Source: Pseudomonadota bacterium (GTDB lineage: Bacteria > Pseudomonadota > Gammaproteobacteria > Burkholderiales > Rhodocyclaceae). From it: 64,000 nucleotides of DNA. The DNA is taken from assembly GCA_018241725.1 (NCBI GenBank), contig JAFEDI010000103.1:186001-250000 (forward strand). The letters run 5' to 3'. Positions 4,180 to 12,708 of the stretch are shown here, piece after piece (within the stretch, counting starts at the first letter, position 1; every line of letters begins with the position of its first letter). The translations under genes were made by a program, and so were the position numbers. Under the pieces are notes generated by a model. The model searched no databases and was not told the origin of the DNA. It saw nothing but the letters and a program-made list of their open reading frames with translations.

Positions 4180-4896
<717 letters not shown>

Positions 4897-4960: not shown

Positions 4961-6415
4961 TCAGTCGGGTGTTGTGTCTGGTTCGGCGTGCTGACGCCGC
5001 TGTTGTGTATCAGCAGCAATTTCAGTACGGATCTGCGCCAGATGCTGGGCCCGATCACCCCGATAGAACAGGTTGTAGGCTTCGAAGGGAATCATGCGTC
5101 CATCCGGCTGCACCATGTGTACGCAGGATTTCTTCAGTGCCCGCAGGTCCAGGTTGGCGGCATCCATGAACTGCACGATCAGCACGCGGAAGACGTTTTC
5201 GTAGCCCAGCTGGGGCGCATCGATCTTTGGCAGGCAGCACAGCAGATCGGACAGGCAGCGGGCGCCTGATTCCGGCGAGTGATTGGTGGAAAAGAGCCGG
5301 AACAGCTGCGCCTTGATGGCCGGATCGCGCTCGAAAACGATGGTGTTGGCGGAGCCCGCCAGCAGCGCTTCCGGACCGAGGAAGCGGGTCAGCGGGTGGA
5401 TTTCCTCGCCAAGCTTGAGGGCATAGCCCATGGCCAGGGTGTCCGGGTTACAGGGAACCGGCACGATGTCGTCCAGGCTGAACAAGCCGGACTGTTCGGC
5501 GATACGGCGGCGGATCTCGCTGAGGGTCAGACGGTGCATGCCGGCACTGAAGCCGTCGTTGCGGCCGGCATCTTGGATCGGCTGCAGCGTGACGCCGCGC
5601 ACGCTGGGGCGGGTCAGTGCGTAGCGGATGATGTCGCCGATCTCGTCGTCGTTGACGCCCTTTTTCAGCGTCATTACCAGGGTTGTGGATACGTTGTGGC
5701 GATCGAGGGCGTCCAGGGCCTGTTCGCGGATGCGCCGCAGGTCGGCGCCGCGCAAGTCCTGCAGCGCGTCGGCGCGCAGGGAGTCGAACTGCAGGTAGAT
5801 CTCGATCCCTGGCTTGTATTCGGCCAGCCGGGCGGCAAATTCCGGCTCCTGGGCTAGGCGGATACCGTTGGTGTTCACCATCAGGTGGCGGATTGGCCGG
5901 GCTTTGGCGGCATCGAGGATGGCGAAGAAATCCGGATGGAGTGTCGGTTCGCCGCCGGAAAGCTGCACCACATCCGGTTCGCCCTCGTTGCGGACCACAG
6001 CGTCCAGCATCGACTCGATGACGGCTAGCGGGCGGTGGTTCAGGCGCTCAGGGCCGGAACCGGCATAGCACACCGGGCAGCGCAGGTTGCAGTGATCGGT
6101 CACTTCCAGCACCGTCAGGCAGGAGTGCTGCATGTGGTCTGGGCACAGGCCACAGTCGTAGGGGCAACCGAATTCCATGCGTGTCGAGAAATTCTCGGGC
6201 ATTTCCGGCGTCTTCACGTAAACCTCGCGCCCAAGCCGGTAATAGTCGGCATCGTCGGCGATCAGTATGCGTTCCGTGCCATGGGCCGGGCACCATTTCT
6301 CCAGGAAGACCTGCTCCTTCTTGATCAGGATCTTGGCCTCGACGCGACGCAGGCACTGGGAGCACACCGAGCCAGTGGTGTCATGGAACAGGTAGGGACG
6401 GTTCTTGCGCGACAT
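4961..6415 (-). CDS. Radical SAM protein of the tetraether lipid synthase (Tes/MJ0619)-like family
   Basis: The 484-residue protein has a radical SAM site C109-X3-C113-X2-C116 (CNLRCPVC) and a GGE motif (SGGEPT, 153-158) that binds SAM. Before it lies a Cys-rich N-terminal region (C18, C21, C42, then C84, C88, C91, C99). Further cysteines follow in PVPCNPDT and ARCLSDLLCCLP, and the C-terminal block SCVHMVQPDGRMIPFEAYN ends the conserved part. This arrangement of extra clusters plus a terminal C-V-H...G-R-x-I-P-F motif resembles archaeal Tes, which joins lipid chains through sp3 carbon-carbon bonds. Bacterial homologues are mostly uncharacterised, so the reaction here is inferred. It is the last gene of a minus-strand lipid operon and overlaps the Lgt-like gene by 35 bases. 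Confidence 0.8.
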   Translation of the reverse strand: MSRKNRPYLFHDTTGSVCSQCLRRVEAKILIKKEQVFLEKWCPAHGTERILIADDADYYRLGREVYVKTPEMPENFSTRMEFGCPYDCGLCPDHMQHSCLTVLEVTDHCNLRCPVCYAGSGPERLNHRPLAVIESMLDAVVRNEGEPDVVQLSGGEPTLHPDFFAILDAAKARPIRHLMVNTNGIRLAQEPEFAARLAEYKPGIEIYLQFDSLRADALQDLRGADLRRIREQALDALDRHNVSTTLVMTLKKGVNDDEIGDIIRYALTRPSVRGVTLQPIQDAGRNDGFSAGMHRLTLSEIRRRIAEQSGLFSLDDIVPVPCNPDTLAMGYALKLGEEIHPLTRFLGPEALLAGSANTIVFERDPAIKAQLFRLFSTNHSPESGARCLSDLLCCLPKIDAPQLGYENVFRVLIVQFMDAANLDLRALKKSCVHMVQPDGRMIPFEAYNLFYRGDRAQHLAQIRTEIAADTQQRRQHAEPDTTPD

Positions 6416-7145
6416 GGAGGCGACGCCACTGGCGGAGAGTGAGGGGAAGATAGACGATGAGCGCTAGCGCACAGATCCACTGGATGCCGGATAGACCACT
6501 TGGCCACGGGAAGGGGACGGGCTTGAGTGCGTCGATTCCCAGCCGCCACGCCAGATAGGCGGACAGCATCAGCTTGAAGCGCAATCCGCTGGAGGCCGCC
6601 AAGGACGGAGTGGCCTGGTGCAGAAGCAGCGCGAGCACGCCGGCAAAGGCGATTTCGTAGAGCTGGGTAGGATGGCGTGGAATGCCGTCGCCGAAGTCGA
6701 TCGCCCACGGCAGGGAGGTCGGCACGCCATAGGTGCCGTCATTGAGGCTGGCGAGGAAGCAGCCGATCCGGCCGATCGCCAGTCCGAGGAGGATTGGCAT
6801 CACATAGGCGTCGCCGGTGGAGGTCCGGATTCCAGCCCATTTCTTGGCGATTTCGGTGCTGATCAGGCCACCGAGCAGCCCGCCGACCATCGATTGCCCG
6901 GCCAGCAGCAGGCGCCAGCCGTTGGTTTCATGGAGCAGATGGGGCATTTCGGCCCAGAAAACCAGCTTGTTGCCGATCGCAGCGCCGAGCAGGCAGGCGC
7001 ACAAGACCAGAAAGCGGGGGCCGCGCAGGGCGCTGTCGGTGGTCCGTTGCCGCCGGGAGCGGAAGAACAACTGGCTTCCGGCGGTCAGGCCCAGGGCCTC
7101 GAAGACCGCATGGACGGCATGTGCGGTCGTCGGGTCGGTGATCAC
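6381..7145 (-). CDS. Degenerate prolipoprotein diacylglyceryl transferase (Lgt) homologue
   Basis: A 254-residue polytopic membrane protein. It keeps the Lgt framework: GQSMVGGLLGG (83-93), GRIGCF (125-130) and RHPTQLYE (157-164). Canonical Lgt moves diacylglyceryl from phosphatidylglycerol to lipoprotein cysteines and needs a His in the HGG motif and an Asn in GRIGNF. Here these positions read V-G-G and Cys, so the normal reaction is doubtful. It overlaps the upstream small membrane gene by four bases (ATGA) and the radical SAM gene by 35 bases, implying coupled translation. A role in presenting or transferring diacylglyceryl lipid for the radical SAM enzyme is an inference. The housekeeping lgt should lie elsewhere. 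Confidence 0.8.
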   Translation of the reverse strand: MITDPTTAHAVHAVFEALGLTAGSQLFFRSRRQRTTDSALRGPRFLVLCACLLGAAIGNKLVFWAEMPHLLHETNGWRLLLAGQSMVGGLLGGLISTEIAKKWAGIRTSTGDAYVMPILLGLAIGRIGCFLASLNDGTYGVPTSLPWAIDFGDGIPRHPTQLYEIAFAGVLALLLHQATPSLAASSGLRFKLMLSAYLAWRLGIDALKPVPFPWPSGLSGIQWICALALIVYLPLTLRQWRRLHVAQEPSLPVP

Positions 7146-7378
7146 GAGGCGCGATCGGTTGGTGGGGATGTTCCGTCCTCGTCCTCAGTGTCGTTCCGAT
7201 TGAGGATGGATTTCCAGACAAGCCAGGCCGGCCAGCTGAAAAGGAGGATCGAAACCAGCCCGATACCGGCCATTACCGGTTCATTGGCGCCAAGGACGAC
7301 ACAAACGCCGCCGGCAAAGACAGCCAGCAGCAGGACGATCAGGACTGCGATCTTAATCAGCGCGATGACGATCTTCAC
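7142..7378 (-). CDS. Small two-helix membrane protein, function unknown
   Basis: GTG at 7378 follows AAAGGA about ten bases upstream. The 78-residue product has two hydrophobic segments (about 3-31 and 35-55) and a charged C-terminal tail rich in Asp, Glu and Thr. The stop overlaps the start of the Lgt-like gene (ATGA), so the two are probably coupled. No family is recognised; its position suggests an accessory of the neighbouring membrane enzymes. Confidence 0.7.
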   Translation of the reverse strand: MKIVIALIKIAVLIVLLLAVFAGGVCVVLGANEPVMAGIGLVSILLFSWPAWLVWKSILNRNDTEDEDGTSPPTDRAS

Positions 7379-7393
7379 CGGGCATTCATCCTT

Positions 7394-9319
7394 TCATCTC
7401 CCGTCGCCGCGGAGCTCCGCCACGACGGCCTGCAGGCTAGTGGTGCTTACTGCCGCGGCCGCGAGAGGCGCCCCGGCTATTAGTTCGATGCGGCTGAACA
7501 GGCCCCGCCGCAGCGGGCGCGGTAGCGCTGTTCCGTCCTTGCGGGAGAACATGCTACCCCATAGACCGCGCAGCGCCAGCGGGACCACCGGTACGGGATT
7601 GGCCTCAAGGATACGGGTGACGCCCGGGCGGAAGGGGGACAGTTCGCCGTCGGCAGTGATCTTTCCCTCAGGGAACAGACATACCAGCTCACCGGCGTCC
7701 AGCGCCCGTGAGACTTCCGAGTAGGCGGTGTCGAGCATGGCCGGGTCTTCCTTCGCCGGGGCGATGGGAATGGCGCGACCGTGGCGGAACACGAAGGACA
7801 GCAGCGGCCAGCGGAAGATGCGGTGATCCATCACGAAACGGATCGGGCGGCGGCAGGCGGCGGCGATGATCAATGCGTCCACGTAGCTGACGTGATTGCA
7901 GACGATCAACGCTGGACCCTCTTCGGGGATCCGCTCGATGCCGTCGGTGCGCAGGCGATAAACGGTGTGTACCAGCAGCCAGACGATGAAGCGCAGCAGG
8001 AATTCCGGCACCAGTTTGTAGATGTAGATTGCCACCGCAGCGTTCATCAACGCGGCCACGCCGAACAGGGTCGGGATGGACAGGCCCGCGCTGAGCATGC
8101 TGCCGGCGCCCAGCGCTCCAGCTACCATGAACAGGGCATTGACGATGTTGTTGGCGGCGATCACCCGCGCCCGCTGAGCGGGTGCGGAGCGGGTCTGCAT
8201 CATCGCGTAAAGGGGAACGATGAAGAAGCCACCGAAAACGCCGAGCATCATCAGGGCCAGCAGCACGTGGAGGGTTCCTGCCTGGCTCAGAACCGCGCTG
8301 ACCGGCAGCGGTGCGCCAGTGGGCAGCATGGAGGGAGAGGCCAGGGCCAGGTCGAGGCCGAAGAGCGTCAGGCCGATGGAGCCGAAAGGCACGAGGCCGA
8401 TTTCCACGTGGCCGCCGGAGAGCTTCTCGCACAGCAGGGAGCCCAGGCCGATTCCCACCGTGAAGGTGGCGAGCAGCAGCGTGACGGTGCCCTCGCCACC
8501 GCCGAGAATCGATTTAGCATAGGTAGGGAACTGGGCGAGAAACAGCGCGCCATAAAGCCAGAACCAGGAGATCCCCATGATTGCCAGGAAAACCGTGCGG
8601 TTCTGCCGCGCGAAGCCGATGTTGCGCCAGGTTTCGGTAAGCGGGTTGGGATTGACGCGCAGCTCCGGATCGGGGGCTGGCGCGGGAGGAACGCCGCGAC
8701 TGGTCAGGTAGCCGGCGATGGCAACCACCAGTCCGCCACCAGCGATCCACAATTCGCCGTGCTCGGCGGAGGCCAGCAGGCCGCCGACCAGGGTGCCGAC
8801 CAGGATCGCCACGAAGGTTCCGGCTTCGACCAGCGCATTGCCGCCGACCAGTTCATCCTCGTGCAGGTGCTGGGGCAGCAGCGCGTACTTGACCGGCCCG
8901 AACAGCGTCGAGTGGCAGCCGAGCAGGAACAGCGCGCCGAAGAGCACCGGCAGGCTGTGCAGCAGGAAACCCGTCAGTGCGACCAGCATGATCGCGATTT
9001 CCAGCACTTTGACCAGCCGGGTCAGGTAGGCCTTGTCGTATTTGTCAGCCAGTTGGCCGGCGCTGGCCGAGAACAGGAAGAATGGCAGGATGAAGATGCC
9101 GGCAGCGAGGTTGGCCAGCAGTGCCGGCGCGATGCTTGTCCAGTTGGCGGCCTGGAAAGTCAGCAGCACGACGAGGGCATTCTTGAACAGGTTGTCGTTG
9201 AAGGCGCCGAGGAACTGGGTCAGGAAGAAAGGCAGAAAGCGCTTTTCCTTCAGCAGGCCGAACTGGGAGTGCGGTTGGCTGGTGCTTTGGGACGAAGGAC
9301 GATCCGGCTGTGAGCTCAT
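7394..9319 (-). CDS. LplT-like lysophospholipid transporter fused to PlsC acyltransferase
   Basis: The 641-residue protein has an MFS domain (about 20-420, beginning FLPFFLTQFLGAFNDNLFKN, typical of LplT) followed by a PlsC domain with NHVSYVDAL (the HX4D acyltransferase motif) and FPEGK. LplT flips lysophospholipids across the inner membrane and PlsC-type domains re-acylate them, so the fusion would couple import with repair. The ATG at 9319 starts a short polar tail before the first helix; an open frame extends further upstream to 9514 but into the preceding lipoprotein gene. It follows that gene by 91 bp and precedes the small membrane gene by 15 bp. The Aas-like protein in the same operon is the usual partner of LplT. 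Confidence 0.9.
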   Translation of the reverse strand: MSSQPDRPSSQSTSQPHSQFGLLKEKRFLPFFLTQFLGAFNDNLFKNALVVLLTFQAANWTSIAPALLANLAAGIFILPFFLFSASAGQLADKYDKAYLTRLVKVLEIAIMLVALTGFLLHSLPVLFGALFLLGCHSTLFGPVKYALLPQHLHEDELVGGNALVEAGTFVAILVGTLVGGLLASAEHGELWIAGGGLVVAIAGYLTSRGVPPAPAPDPELRVNPNPLTETWRNIGFARQNRTVFLAIMGISWFWLYGALFLAQFPTYAKSILGGGEGTVTLLLATFTVGIGLGSLLCEKLSGGHVEIGLVPFGSIGLTLFGLDLALASPSMLPTGAPLPVSAVLSQAGTLHVLLALMMLGVFGGFFIVPLYAMMQTRSAPAQRARVIAANNIVNALFMVAGALGAGSMLSAGLSIPTLFGVAALMNAAVAIYIYKLVPEFLLRFIVWLLVHTVYRLRTDGIERIPEEGPALIVCNHVSYVDALIIAAACRRPIRFVMDHRIFRWPLLSFVFRHGRAIPIAPAKEDPAMLDTAYSEVSRALDAGELVCLFPEGKITADGELSPFRPGVTRILEANPVPVVPLALRGLWGSMFSRKDGTALPRPLRRGLFSRIELIAGAPLAAAAVSTTSLQAVVAELRGDGR

Positions 9320-9410
9320 GCGTGGGTCCGATCGGGGAATGGAGGGATTTCGACGCATCCGGCCCCGCGATGGCGGGTACTGGTGGGTAATGATGGAGAC
9401 TGTTGGCGGG

Positions 9411-10181
9411 TCATGGCCTGGATGTTTCGGCCGCTTCCGTTGAGCCTGCGCCGACAATGATTCGTGCTGCTTTTTCCATCCGGATGCGGGTGCGGAAGTT
9501 CTCGAGCTGGGCATCGAGGCGGGGCAGCAGATCGTCTACGGCCAGCCGGAAGCCCTCCGCCCGGGCCTGTCGTGCATTTTCGGACAGGATGGCCTGTGGT
9601 GCCGTGCCCTTGACCTGACTGGTACCAGGGGCCCGGAACAGCAGGCTGCGGCTGGAGACATCGATAACCGAGGCATCCACCAGCGTATTGACATCGTACT
9701 GGTTGCCGTTGATCAGGTAGGAGCCGACGATGGTCCAGTACAGCAGCGAGAGACGGTTGGTGTCGGTGAATTGGATCTGGTCATAGGACAGCAGGACGAC
9801 CACATCCACGTTGAACATCCGGGCGGCCTGTTCCAGATTGCCGAAGCCGCCGCGGGAGCGCAGGTAGTTGGATGGAATGGTCTCGATCTTGGCGATGTAG
9901 GGGCGGTTGGCGAAGGCTGCCTTGACCCGGTCGATGAGTTGGTTGCGGTCGCTTTCGCCCAGGTTGGAGTAATTGTCGCCCGGTACAAAGGCGATGCCGA
10001 CCCGCAGCGGGAGATGCAGTTCGGGCAGGCTGGGTTTGAGGGTCGGCTTGTCGCCCTGGGGATACAGGTACTCGACGATCGATCCGCGTTCCGTTGAACG
10101 GTGCTGGTTGTTGAACCAGGATGCACAGCCGGCAAGTGCGGTGGCCGAAAGCATTATCGCAATCCATCGGACGGGTTTCAT
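9411..10181 (-). CDS. Outer-membrane-type lipoprotein of the rhombotarget-lipoprotein-like family
   Basis: The 256-residue protein starts with a lipoprotein signal peptide ending in a lipobox (LAGC, Cys19). It then has SIVEYLYP, LRVGIAFVPG and a central VDVVVLLSYDQIQFTD segment. I recall this pattern in proteins annotated as rhombotarget lipoprotein, but no glycine-rich hydrophobic C-terminal sorting signal is visible here, so the name should be held loosely. Gaps to the genes on either side are 25 bp (Aas-like) and 91 bp (LplT-PlsC), consistent with one operon. A role as a periplasm-facing lipid-binding or assembly component is only inferred from the neighbours. Confidence 0.75.
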   Translation of the reverse strand: MKPVRWIAIMLSATALAGCASWFNNQHRSTERGSIVEYLYPQGDKPTLKPSLPELHLPLRVGIAFVPGDNYSNLGESDRNQLIDRVKAAFANRPYIAKIETIPSNYLRSRGGFGNLEQAARMFNVDVVVLLSYDQIQFTDTNRLSLLYWTIVGSYLINGNQYDVNTLVDASVIDVSSRSLLFRAPGTSQVKGTAPQAILSENARQARAEGFRLAVDDLLPRLDAQLENFRTRIRMEKAARIIVGAGSTEAAETSRP

Positions 10182-10206
10182 CGGCGGACTCCTTCAGGTG
10201 TTTCGA

Positions 10207-12345
10207 TCAGGCCTGTTCGGCCCATTGTTTCAGGGTGACGTAATCGATCTTTCCGGTACCCAGCAGCGGCAGTGCTTCTACGGCAAGGATCTGCCGTGGC
10301 ACGGTGATCTCCGGCCAGCCTCCATCCCGCGCTGCGGTCTGTAGGTGTTCGCGGGTCAGGTTCCTGTCCGTTGTGTACAGCAGGATGGTCTCGCCGCGAG
10401 CTGCGTCAGGCCGGGTCGAGGCAGCATGCTGGGCCGTGGGGGAGCTGCTATTGGCCAGTTTCTCGACGACTTCCAGGGACACCATTTCACCGGCAACCTT
10501 GGCAAAACGCTTGATGCGCCCGACGATCTTCACGAAGCCGTCGGTGTCGATATCCACCACGTCACCCGTCTCGTACCAGCCGTCACCGGCTGCCGACGCC
10601 GGTGCCTGCAGTACGCCGGGCGCTTCGACACGCAGATAGCCGGACATCAGGTTCGGGCATTTCACGTGCAACATGCCGCCGCCTGGAATGCCGGGAACCG
10701 CCACCAGCTTGTGCTGAACGCCGGGCAGAAATTGGCCGACGGTGCCGCTGCGGAAGGCCATCGGCGTATTGACCGCCAGCACCGGGGCCGTCTCGGTGGC
10801 GCCGTAGCCTTCGAAGATGCGAATGCCAAATTTCTCGAACCACAGGTCGCGGACCGGAGTTGCCAGCTTTTCAGCGCCGGCGATGACGTAGCGCAGGCGA
10901 TAGAAATCGTAGGGGTGAGCGAACTTGGCGTAGTTGCCGAGGAAGGTGCTGGTGCCGAGTAGCACGGTGCAGTTGCGGTCGTAGGCTAGTTCCGGAATCA
11001 CCCGGTAGTGCAGTGGCGACGGATAGAGGAAGACCTTGGCGCCGCTCAACACTGGCAGAAGGGCGCCAGCGGTAAGGCCAAAGGAATGGAACAGCGGCAG
11101 CGCATTGAGAATCTTGTCGTCGATCGATAGATCGACGACTGCGCGGATCTGCGCGACATTGGCCAGCAGGGCCCGGTGGGACAGCACGACGCCCTTCGGC
11201 TTGCCCTCCGAACCGGACGTGAACAGCACCACCGCGGGATCTTCCGGTGATCCTGCCGGCAGGGCCGCGCGCGGGAAGCGCAGCGCCCACAGCACCAGCC
11301 AGAGCTTGTCGCCAAGGCCGATCTTCTCGCGCAGGTCTTCGAGGTAGATCACCCTTACGTCGCGCAGTGCAGCCAGCTTGTCGCCCAGCTTGGCCTGCTC
11401 GATGAAGGCGCGGGAGGTCACGATGGTACGGATCTGCGCCGCCGTGCAGGCAGTCTGCATGCCCTCTGTGCCAGCCGTATAGTTGAGCATCGCAGCGACA
11501 CGGCGGTGGGCGGTCAGGCCGAAGATCAGTCCGAGGGTGGCGGTGAGATTGGGCAGCAGCAGGCCGACTGCTTCACTCTGCCGGCTTTCCCGTGCCACCA
11601 GGCGGCCGAGGGCGAGGGCCATCTTGATCAGGTCGCCGTAGCTGTATTCGATCTGCTTCAGGTCTTCGAGCAGACGGTGCTTGCGTCCCTGGATGTCGGC
11701 CGCATCGAGGAGCGTCTCGAAAAGGGTCTGGTCGGGGCGGGTTGCGAAGATCAGTTCCTGCATCAGCTGACGCATGGCTTCGCCAGCCTTGCGCCGACGC
11801 ACGCGGGCGGTGGCGCCGTCGGGCATCGGCAAGCGGGTCGTCGGCTGGATGCTCAGCATGATCCGTGGAAACAGCCGCCGCGGCACATGGGATGCGAGGC
11901 GCGAGAAGTAGGTGCGGGAGGCGCCGTCGATACGGACCGGCAGGATCGTCGCGCCGGTCTTGGCCGCCACGAAGGCCGGACCATCGTAGGTCTTCATCAG
12001 GCTGCCGGTCGTCGTGATGCGCCCTTCCGGGAAGATCACCACCGGTCGCCCGCTCTCGATGAGCCGGATGACCTTCTTCATCGCCATCGGGCTGGTTGGA
12101 TCGACCGCGAGGTAGTCCACCAGTGACAGCGCAATACGGAAGAACGGATTCTGCGCAATGCCGGTATGGACTACGAAGACCGGATCGAAGGGCAGGAACA
12201 GGCCCAACAGCAGGCCGTCGAGGAAGGACTCATGGTTGGCGATGATCAGCAGACGTTCATGTCGCTCTGCCGGAGTGCCGATGAGACGGACGCGGAACAG
12301 CAATGCGGCAAGACTGCGAAGGATGGCCTTGATGAACGATCGCAT
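10207..12345 (-). CDS. aas: Bifunctional acyltransferase / acyl-ACP synthetase (Aas-like)
   Basis: A 712-residue two-domain protein. The N-terminal PlsC domain has NHESFLD (HX4D) near residue 50 and FPEGR. The C-terminal adenylate-forming domain has the LFTSGSEGKPKG phosphate loop, GYGATET and YETGDVVDID. In E. coli, Aas activates a fatty acid to acyl-ACP and transfers it to the 1-position of lysophosphatidylethanolamine. It follows the ArsR gene by 15 bp and is the first enzyme gene of the operon. There is no extra N-terminal helix beyond a short amphipathic start, so it is probably a peripheral inner-membrane protein. The ATG at 12345 gives the full PlsC domain. Confidence 0.92.
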   Translation of the reverse strand: MRSFIKAILRSLAALLFRVRLIGTPAERHERLLIIANHESFLDGLLLGLFLPFDPVFVVHTGIAQNPFFRIALSLVDYLAVDPTSPMAMKKVIRLIESGRPVVIFPEGRITTTGSLMKTYDGPAFVAAKTGATILPVRIDGASRTYFSRLASHVPRRLFPRIMLSIQPTTRLPMPDGATARVRRRKAGEAMRQLMQELIFATRPDQTLFETLLDAADIQGRKHRLLEDLKQIEYSYGDLIKMALALGRLVARESRQSEAVGLLLPNLTATLGLIFGLTAHRRVAAMLNYTAGTEGMQTACTAAQIRTIVTSRAFIEQAKLGDKLAALRDVRVIYLEDLREKIGLGDKLWLVLWALRFPRAALPAGSPEDPAVVLFTSGSEGKPKGVVLSHRALLANVAQIRAVVDLSIDDKILNALPLFHSFGLTAGALLPVLSGAKVFLYPSPLHYRVIPELAYDRNCTVLLGTSTFLGNYAKFAHPYDFYRLRYVIAGAEKLATPVRDLWFEKFGIRIFEGYGATETAPVLAVNTPMAFRSGTVGQFLPGVQHKLVAVPGIPGGGMLHVKCPNLMSGYLRVEAPGVLQAPASAAGDGWYETGDVVDIDTDGFVKIVGRIKRFAKVAGEMVSLEVVEKLANSSSPTAQHAASTRPDAARGETILLYTTDRNLTREHLQTAARDGGWPEITVPRQILAVEALPLLGTGKIDYVTLKQWAEQA

Positions 12346-12360
12346 GGTGGTGGGAATGGC

Positions 12361-12672
12361 TCAGAGGTTGGTGGAGAGGTAGTCCAGCACGGTGCCGAGG
12401 GTGTCCTGCAGATAGGCCTTGTTCACATGGAAGTAGATTTCCTTGCCTTCCCGCTCGGCGATAAGTACCCGGGATTCCCGCAAGACCTTCAGGTGGTGGG
12501 ACACCGTCGAGCGCGCCAGTGTGGACACCTCGGCAATCTGGCCGACATTGAGGCGCTCGCCGGGCTCGAAGGTCAGCAAGATGCGTTGACGGTGTTCGTC
12601 GCCAAGTGCGGTGAATACGGCGGATATCTCATGCCATTCCTCGGGAATGGCGAGGGAGTAATTGTTTTTCAT
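12361..12672 (-). CDS. ArsR-family winged-helix regulator of the lipid operon
   Basis: The ArsR-type fold is clear: DEHRQRILLTFEPGERLNVG, then the recognition helix TLARSTVSHHLKVLRES, then the wing REGKEIYFHVN. The CxC metal site of classic ArsR is absent, so the signal is probably not arsenic; a lipid or redox cue is possible. I choose the ATG at 12672 (103 residues). An earlier TTG at 12708 coincides with a consensus -35 hexamer and is unlikely to be translated. The start lies at a 20-bp palindrome and has no ribosome-binding site, which suggests a leaderless, self-repressed transcript. It heads a seven-gene run of minus-strand genes. Confidence 0.88.
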   Translation of the reverse strand: MKNNYSLAIPEEWHEISAVFTALGDEHRQRILLTFEPGERLNVGQIAEVSTLARSTVSHHLKVLRESRVLIAEREGKEIYFHVNKAYLQDTLGTVLDYLSTNL

Positions 12673-12708
12673 GTCGATAATAATCGATATGTTTTTGGAA
12701 TTTGTCAA
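12671..12708 (-). promoter_or_regulatory. Promoter and palindromic operator of the arsR-led lipid operon
   Basis: On the minus strand, TTGACA (12708-12703), a 17-bp spacer and GATTAT (12685-12680) form a good sigma-70 promoter. The expected start of transcription falls on the ATG at 12672. A near-perfect palindrome, ATGTCGAT-AATA-ATCGATAT (plus strand 12671-12690), covers the -10 and start region, as expected for an ArsR operator. Confidence 0.7.

Follow-up and report, generated by a model that had tools for sequence, protein, structure and literature searches.

What does a radical S-adenosylmethionine (SAM) enzyme resembling the archaeal tetraether synthase Tes do among the lipid genes of a bacterium, and which genes belong with it? 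The question is raised by the window, a stretch of 64,000 nucleotides from a bacterium of the Rhodocyclaceae (GenBank assembly GCA_018241725.1, contig JAFEDI010000103.1, positions 186,001 to 250,000), in which a first-pass annotation had described a seven-gene operon built around such a radical SAM gene. The coordinates of the open reading frames (ORFs) place all seven genes on the minus strand, with computed intergenic gaps of 15, 25, 91 and 15 bp and overlaps of 4 and 35 bp, as had been described, and Pfam and NCBIfam scans agree with the families named. The full set of seven is, however, a local arrangement. What recurs is a three-part unit within it, consisting of the radical SAM gene, a gene for an Lgt-like membrane protein and a gene for a tiny membrane protein with a cysteine in its helix; the conservation of this unit is well supported at the level of sequence, and it points to an undescribed route of lipid attachment to small membrane proteins.

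The comparison covered 90 loci, made up of 80 named loci (the best 80 of at least 513 confirmed stretches) and ten from a survey of the class, all scanned with the window proteins; some of these stretches are cut by contig ends. An Lgt-like match was found in 84 of them, and in 82 cases it precedes the radical SAM gene on a shared strand, so that the pair singled out for a neighbourhood search in the first-pass annotation does hold together. Loci with the pair belong to Pseudomonadota, Acidobacteriota, Bacillota, Bacteroidota and Verrucomicrobiota, and strains of Collimonas, Massilia, Flavobacterium and Paenibacillus are among the named hosts. The distance between the two genes ranges from -334 to +69 bp in 63 loci, and most of the remaining 19 have other small genes in between. 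Outside the 82, a contig end cuts off the upstream side in two loci (L026 and L084), a distant Lgt homologue lies on the opposite strand in two more (L048 and L050), and the scan with the window proteins gave no Lgt-like match in L018, L019, L023 and L100. Among the 369 genomes of the class survey, the radical SAM gene was detected at E 1e-20 in 11 (with at least 51% identity in ten), and the Lgt-like profile scored at least 231 bits in eight, each of which has the radical SAM gene; the next best Lgt-like matches, of 118 and 99 bits, come from two further genomes (G001 and G126). The remaining genes of the operon are far less constant: the LplT-PlsC gene was found near the pair in 14 of the 90 loci, Aas in 7 (counted at 60% identity or more), ArsR in 5 (at 50% or more) and the lipoprotein in 1, all in Pseudomonadota, with weaker matches left uncounted (ArsR at 31% in L089, Aas at 20-30% in seven loci). 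These counts rule out the seven-gene operon, which the first-pass annotation had taken as the unit, as a conserved entity.

The small membrane protein had been listed in that annotation with no role assigned, whereas it proves to be the third recurrent member. Such proteins were seen beside the pair in several phyla on reading the neighbouring genes. Cysteine-bearing hydrophobic ORFs of 35-200 amino acids (aa) near the pair number 89 on the same strand, in 71 of the 90 loci, and 5 on the opposite strand; the corresponding numbers are 17 and 5 at middle distance and 25 and 22 in 984 kb of far sequence. A fairer count picked hydrophobic ORFs of 40-150 aa regardless of cysteine. On the same strand it gave 95 ORFs in 75 of the 90 loci near the pair (about 183 kb), 79 of them with a cysteine in the helix, and 37 in the 984 kb of far sequence, 8 of them with a helix cysteine; several of the 16 near ORFs lacking a scored cysteine have one just beyond the scored stretch. 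After five doubtful rows were dropped, the curated list comprises 101 tiny genes. They come from 78 of 92 loci (76 from the set of 90, together with the window and a Persicobacter locus), and two to four unlike tiny genes occur together in 19 of the 78. The Persicobacter locus (L106), which comes from another collection, has overlapping genes for the Lgt-like protein, the radical SAM protein and a protein of 59 residues with the C-terminus IGTGICGSLLS. A ketosynthase-like gene, which we take to resemble polyunsaturated fatty acid synthase, follows some 2 kb downstream, at 7072-8379.

The tiny proteins are like lipobox signal peptides in having a positive N-side (the N flank is the more positive in 88 of 101), a hydrophobic stretch and a cysteine predicted to lie close to the outer face, at a median of 19 residues (quartiles 16-20) beyond the N-side charge. 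They differ in that the classical lipobox [LVI][ASTVI][GAS]C is present in 1 of 101 and missing from the other 100, the residue at -1 being A, G or S in 33, and in that the cysteine is often near the C-terminus (within 14 residues in 42). Aligned, 36 proteobacterial tiny proteins have a mean column identity of 21% and a single invariant column, the cysteine (Cys26 in the window), while 16 proteins from Bacilli have the invariant columns P, L, A, C and G. The helix is N-terminal in Pseudomonadota and C-terminal in Bacteroidota and Bacillota, and two Paenibacillus proteins that were scanned have a B-box zinc-finger N-terminus over the cut-off; such varied settings of the helix are as expected of substrates. 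Scans of the 16- and 36-row sets against Pfam and NCBIfam gave scattered weak matches only, and the window protein itself matched no Pfam family over the cut-off and no NCBIfam family. A search of the window's own genome for further tiny proteins recovered the window copy at E 3.8e-16, followed by matches at E 0.0036 and weaker; in the class survey a profile of the tiny proteins matched 5 of 369 genomes, all five already rows of the profile, missed the pair-bearing genomes G015, G074 and G206, and found no match at E 1e-6 in genomes lacking the pair.

Larger proteins with a similar helix occur at some loci. In Psychrobacter (L053, 6429-9891), the Lgt-like gene is preceded by five consecutive small membrane ORFs, three of which fit the motif rule; the gene between the Lgt-like and radical SAM genes encodes a protein of 317 aa that has a helix of this type and no Pfam family. 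In L040, L041, L046 and L047 this place is taken by a protein of about 260-272 aa, of one family, whose N-terminal helix ends in GGTGC in the three copies shown and which has a Sel1 repeat in the L040 copy; it is a candidate for a larger substrate.

The fold predicted for the radical SAM protein is that of Tes, also called GDGT-MAS after the glycerol dialkyl glycerol tetraethers (GDGTs), with the residues of the rubredoxin site, the N-terminal cluster and the SAM cluster present and a rubredoxin motif (Cx2Cx20Cx2H) spaced as in MJ0619, the archaeal Tes of known structure (PDB 7TOL/7TOM). A grouping with SPASM or BchE types, the outcome that the first-pass annotation had named as contradicting its reading, was not obtained, Tes being the closest in the fold comparison. 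The curated NCBIfam model of Tes, however, does not place the protein in that family, scoring 255.4 bits against a cut-off of 450; identity to MJ0619 is about 30%, and the closer model, TrsS (NF045646), a radical SAM (seleno)protein family, is the best-scoring named family and yet stays under its own cut-off (330.9 of 490 bits). Both models are matched at E 1e-30 or better by all 31 clade members scanned. The one paper found on TrsS has it as a table entry with no function given. In a tree built by a quick method, a clade of 91 rows is separated at a support of 99 (Shimodaira-Hasegawa-like approximate likelihood ratio test), with very long outgroup branches; since the tree contains neither archaeal Tes nor TrsS rows, it gives no position of the clade between the two.

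The C-terminal motif that had been likened to that of archaeal Tes did not hold up, since the marker residues of this domain are changed. With positions mapped by alignment, that of Tyr459 of MJ0619 is I, F, M or L in all 90 rows and Tyr in none, those of Cys455 and Cys470 are S/T and E/D, and that of Met439 is V in 44 rows, M in 44 and I in 2. An M439A variant of MJ0619 is still active according to PMC9433317, so that of Tyr459 and Met439 the former alone weighs against membership in Tes. The clade further departs from archaeal Tes in having the Lgt-like gene upstream (82 of 90 loci) and a Cys-Cys pair (393/394) in 88 of 90 rows, located in a stretch (354-400) where the AlphaFold model has a predicted local distance difference test score below 50. 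The two rows without this pair are L018 and L019; both belong to the same radical SAM clade, and downstream of their radical SAM gene come genes for a DUF547 protein and a methyltransferase (assigned by Pfam from the copies in L019). In relatives from Halorarius (L108) and Mycolicibacterium (L107), the next gene is likewise annotated as a methyltransferase; because of these neighbours, other branches may serve a different pathway. By eye, L023 (genome G239) has two distant Tes-like radical SAM genes clustered with short-chain-dehydrogenase-like and aminotransferase-like genes. A selenoprotein lead was dropped, since the seemingly in-frame TGA in L003 proved to be the stop codon that ends this gene, close to where the aligned stretch ends, and so was an anti-phage role, for which, among five proteins scanned, the radical SAM protein alone matched viperin, and weakly (best E 7e-13).

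The Lgt-like protein has both the predicted fold of Lgt and the Pfam LGT domain. By alignment to 5AZB and motif positions, Arg143 and Arg239 of Lgt (PDB 5AZB/5AZC) correspond to Arg126 and Arg201, which are kept in 83 of 83 rows. It differs at His103 of the HGGL motif, which is replaced by V in 67, L in 9 and M in 7 of these rows (SMVGG in the window, SFHGG in 5AZB), and at the signature Asn146, which is Cys129 in all 83. The window protein misses the NCBIfam cut-offs for Lgt (39.1 of 334 and 35.4 of 118.9 bits), and a second, better-scoring Lgt is encoded elsewhere in its genome, as it is in 12 of 12 other genomes tested.

What sequence and prediction establish is the set of genes, the conservation of the pair, the recurrence of tiny proteins with their cysteine, and the predicted folds. 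The best explanation, to which we give a chance just short of even, is a three-part lipidation cassette that would work as follows: (i) the tiny membrane protein, as substrate, would enter the inner membrane with its positive end kept on the cytoplasmic side, the helix cysteine, some 19 residues on, coming to lie close to the outer face of that membrane; (ii) the Lgt-like enzyme, with its two lipid-phosphate arginines and without the classical thiol-activating histidine, would transfer a (di)acylglyceryl-type lipid to this cysteine; (iii) the cytoplasmic radical SAM enzyme would abstract a hydrogen from a lipid chain and form a C-C or C-S bond; (iv) the lipid handed over would be altered, perhaps cross-linked; and (v) in Rhodocyclales and relatives, Aas and LplT-PlsC would re-acylate the lysophospholipid released by this acyl traffic, with an ArsR-type repressor above them. 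The parts of this proposal differ in strength. The tiny protein is probably a substrate, and the radical SAM enzyme is somewhat likely to act on lipid and not on protein, because of its expected cytoplasmic location and its lipid-enzyme fold; that the lipid goes onto the cysteine we regard as evenly balanced. Transfer to the cysteine is nevertheless the simplest proposal, since an Lgt paralogue adjoins and the cysteine is placed where Lgt finds its own, one membrane span past the positive end, and the presence of Aas and LplT-PlsC suits a consumption of acyl chains at the outer face. A more specific form, in which the helix of the tiny protein would be stapled via the Lgt paralogue to a lipid cross-linked tail to tail by the radical SAM enzyme, is rather unlikely.

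Several observations weigh against the lipidation proposal. According to two studies, E. coli Lgt needs both His103 and Asn146 (PMC4728403, PMC8689077), and because both are replaced here, Lgt chemistry may not take place in the Lgt-like protein. Helix cysteines are not rare elsewhere, being present in 16 of 27 far hydrophobic ORFs on the opposite strand, in 3 of 6 near ones on the opposite strand and, at middle distance, in 15 of 21 on the same and 1 of 6 on the opposite strand. The curated list and the alignment rows were selected for the helix-cysteine motif, and their residues at -2 and +1 are partly given by construction, which is why the ORF density count is the fairer test. Once the doubtful rows were dropped, 14 of the 90 loci had no candidate tiny gene, three of these (L072, L087 and L094) having helix cysteines with other neighbours, and the orientation of the tiny proteins is derived from the positive-inside rule only.

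The observed arrangement can also be explained by several other lines of reasoning. The radical SAM protein could be a bacterial membrane-spanning lipid synthase, coupling the fatty acid tails of two phospholipids, while the Lgt-like and tiny proteins bind or move lipids. The predicted Tes fold, in which the motifs for the rubredoxin site, the N-terminal cluster and the SAM cluster are conserved, would suit this role, and bacterial Tes homologues have been suggested for the synthesis of branched GDGTs (brGDGTs) by Zeng et al. 2022 (PMC8941075). The pair does occur in Acidobacteria (L074, L077 and L079), a group that titles in a reference list connect with iso-diabolic acid. We nonetheless consider a lipid synthase unlikely, if worth keeping in mind: the C-terminal markers of archaeal Tes are altered, with Tyr459 replaced in all 90 rows and the positions of Cys455 and Cys470 changed, none of the eight window proteins scanned falls in a named ether-lipid family of NCBIfam, and the recurrent cysteine of the tiny proteins is left unexplained. 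We know of no such lipids from hosts such as Paenibacillus, Flavobacterium or Massilia. Tyr459 is described in PMC9433317 as completely conserved in 1000 archaeal homologues.

The small, variable and sometimes multiple genes beside the radical SAM gene also resemble precursors of ribosomally synthesized and post-translationally modified peptides (RiPPs), and the radical SAM enzyme might accordingly bond the tiny protein itself, for instance by a thioether at the helix cysteine, with the Lgt-like protein as carrier or receptor. Thioether-forming radical SAM maturases have the same barrel, at a lower Z in the fold comparison; Pfam, however, finds nothing beyond the radical SAM domain and a zinc ribbon at the N-terminus, with no SPASM or peptide-recognition domain, the nearest fold is that of a lipid enzyme, and the cysteine is predicted outside while the enzyme is expected in the cytoplasm, all of which makes maturation of this kind quite improbable. 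A structural subunit or redox partner is a further possibility, in which the cysteine would pair with Cys129 of the Lgt-like protein and no substrate would be involved. It draws on Cys129 being invariant in 83 of 83 rows, on the cysteine of the tiny proteins being the sole invariant column of 36, and on the placement of both in predicted membrane helices; since a subunit would not usually occur in unlike copies, as seen in 19 of 78 loci, or drift strongly in sequence around the cysteine, we hold it to be very doubtful. That the operon merely recycles lysophospholipids, with the radical SAM and Lgt-like genes as passengers, is most improbable: Aas and LplT-PlsC do match standard recycling enzymes, but the neighbourhood counts, 7 and 14 of 90 loci against 82 for the pair, contradict it.

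The proposed lipidation cassette bears on how bacterial Tes homologues are read. Branched GDGT lipids are used in climate reconstruction, and bacterial Tes homologues are considered as their possible makers, with an activity as yet unconfirmed (PMC8941075, PMC11868695). Mss, a bacterial membrane-spanning lipid synthase and one of the nearest known systems, is reported to couple two fatty acids (PMC11868695). A widespread group of Tes homologues accompanied by an Lgt paralogue and tiny cysteine proteins suggests a different job, and gene context offers a test for sorting such homologues. If the tiny proteins are lipidated, they would represent a second Lgt-type route of protein lipidation, present in several phyla and including a radical step, which to our knowledge is part of no known protein lipidation pathway. 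If the stapled-helix form applied, the tiny proteins would make up a lipid-anchored class of a new kind and many bacterial Tes homologues would be protein-lipidation enzymes, not makers of free tetraether lipids. A search of titles and abstracts, in which few subscription journals were covered, found no description of the Lgt-like/radical SAM pair or of the tiny proteins.

The features of the window operon are collected in Table 1.

Table 1. Features of the operon in the window, in order of position
Feature	Positions	Strand	Remarks
Radical SAM protein, tetraether-synthase fold, 484 aa, core member 1	4961..6415	-	
Lgt-like membrane protein, 254 aa, core member 2	6381..7145	-	
Tiny membrane protein, 78 aa, helix cysteine Cys26 (AGGVCVVLG), core member 3, proposed substrate	7142..7378	-	
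LplT-PlsC fusion (lysophospholipid transporter and acyltransferase), accessory	7394..9319	-	Pfam MFS_1 and Acyltransferase
Rhombotarget lipoprotein, family TIGR04179, accessory	9411..10181	-	266.5 bits, cut-off 150
Aas (acyltransferase and acyl-ACP [acyl carrier protein] ligase), accessory	10207..12345	-	NF005959, 982.9 bits, cut-off 886
ArsR-family regulator	12361..12672	-	Pfam HTH_5; NF033788, 65 bits, cut-off 55
Inverted repeat CATATCGATTATTATCGACATG, 22 bp, covering the -10 region and the ArsR ATG, likely ArsR operator	12670..12691		Stem; similar repeats upstream of ArsR in relatives
Promoter-like site TTGACA-17-GATTAT	12680..12708	-	Consensus match only; 3 sites in the region, 1.2 expected

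The operon edge had been placed at 12690, where there is no start codon; the ArsR gene most likely starts at the ATG at 12672, the TTG at 12708 fitting a -35 box (TTGACA) better than a start codon. In all five relatives inspected (L025, L027, L029, L030 and L038), a TTGAC lies upstream of ArsR and the ATG directly behind the -10 region. By eye, a CATATCGAT-like repeat ending at the ArsR ATG is present in L025, L027, L029 and L030, with a different palindrome in L038, while an automated palindrome test returned the CATATCGAT-like repeat for the window, L025 and L027 alone. On account of this layout of promoter and repeat in the window and its relatives, ArsR-type autorepression of the operon is probable. 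The sequence of the regulator contains no cysteine, and the protein is therefore not a cysteine-based metal sensor.

Lysophospholipid recycling is the established function of the Aas and LplT-PlsC families. The LplT-PlsC gene has an ATG at 9319, with the longest open frame extending to 9514. The only other copy of the TIGR04179 lipoprotein near the pair among the 90 loci is in Zoogloea (L024), and a link to rhombosortase through this family was dropped, since no protein of the window's own genome exceeds the cut-off of TIGR03902 (best 33.3 of 84 bits). Beyond the radical SAM end of the operon, at 4180-4896 on the opposite strand and convergent with it, the Pfam scan identified an Fe/Mn superoxide dismutase with a weak twin-arginine translocation (Tat) signal match.

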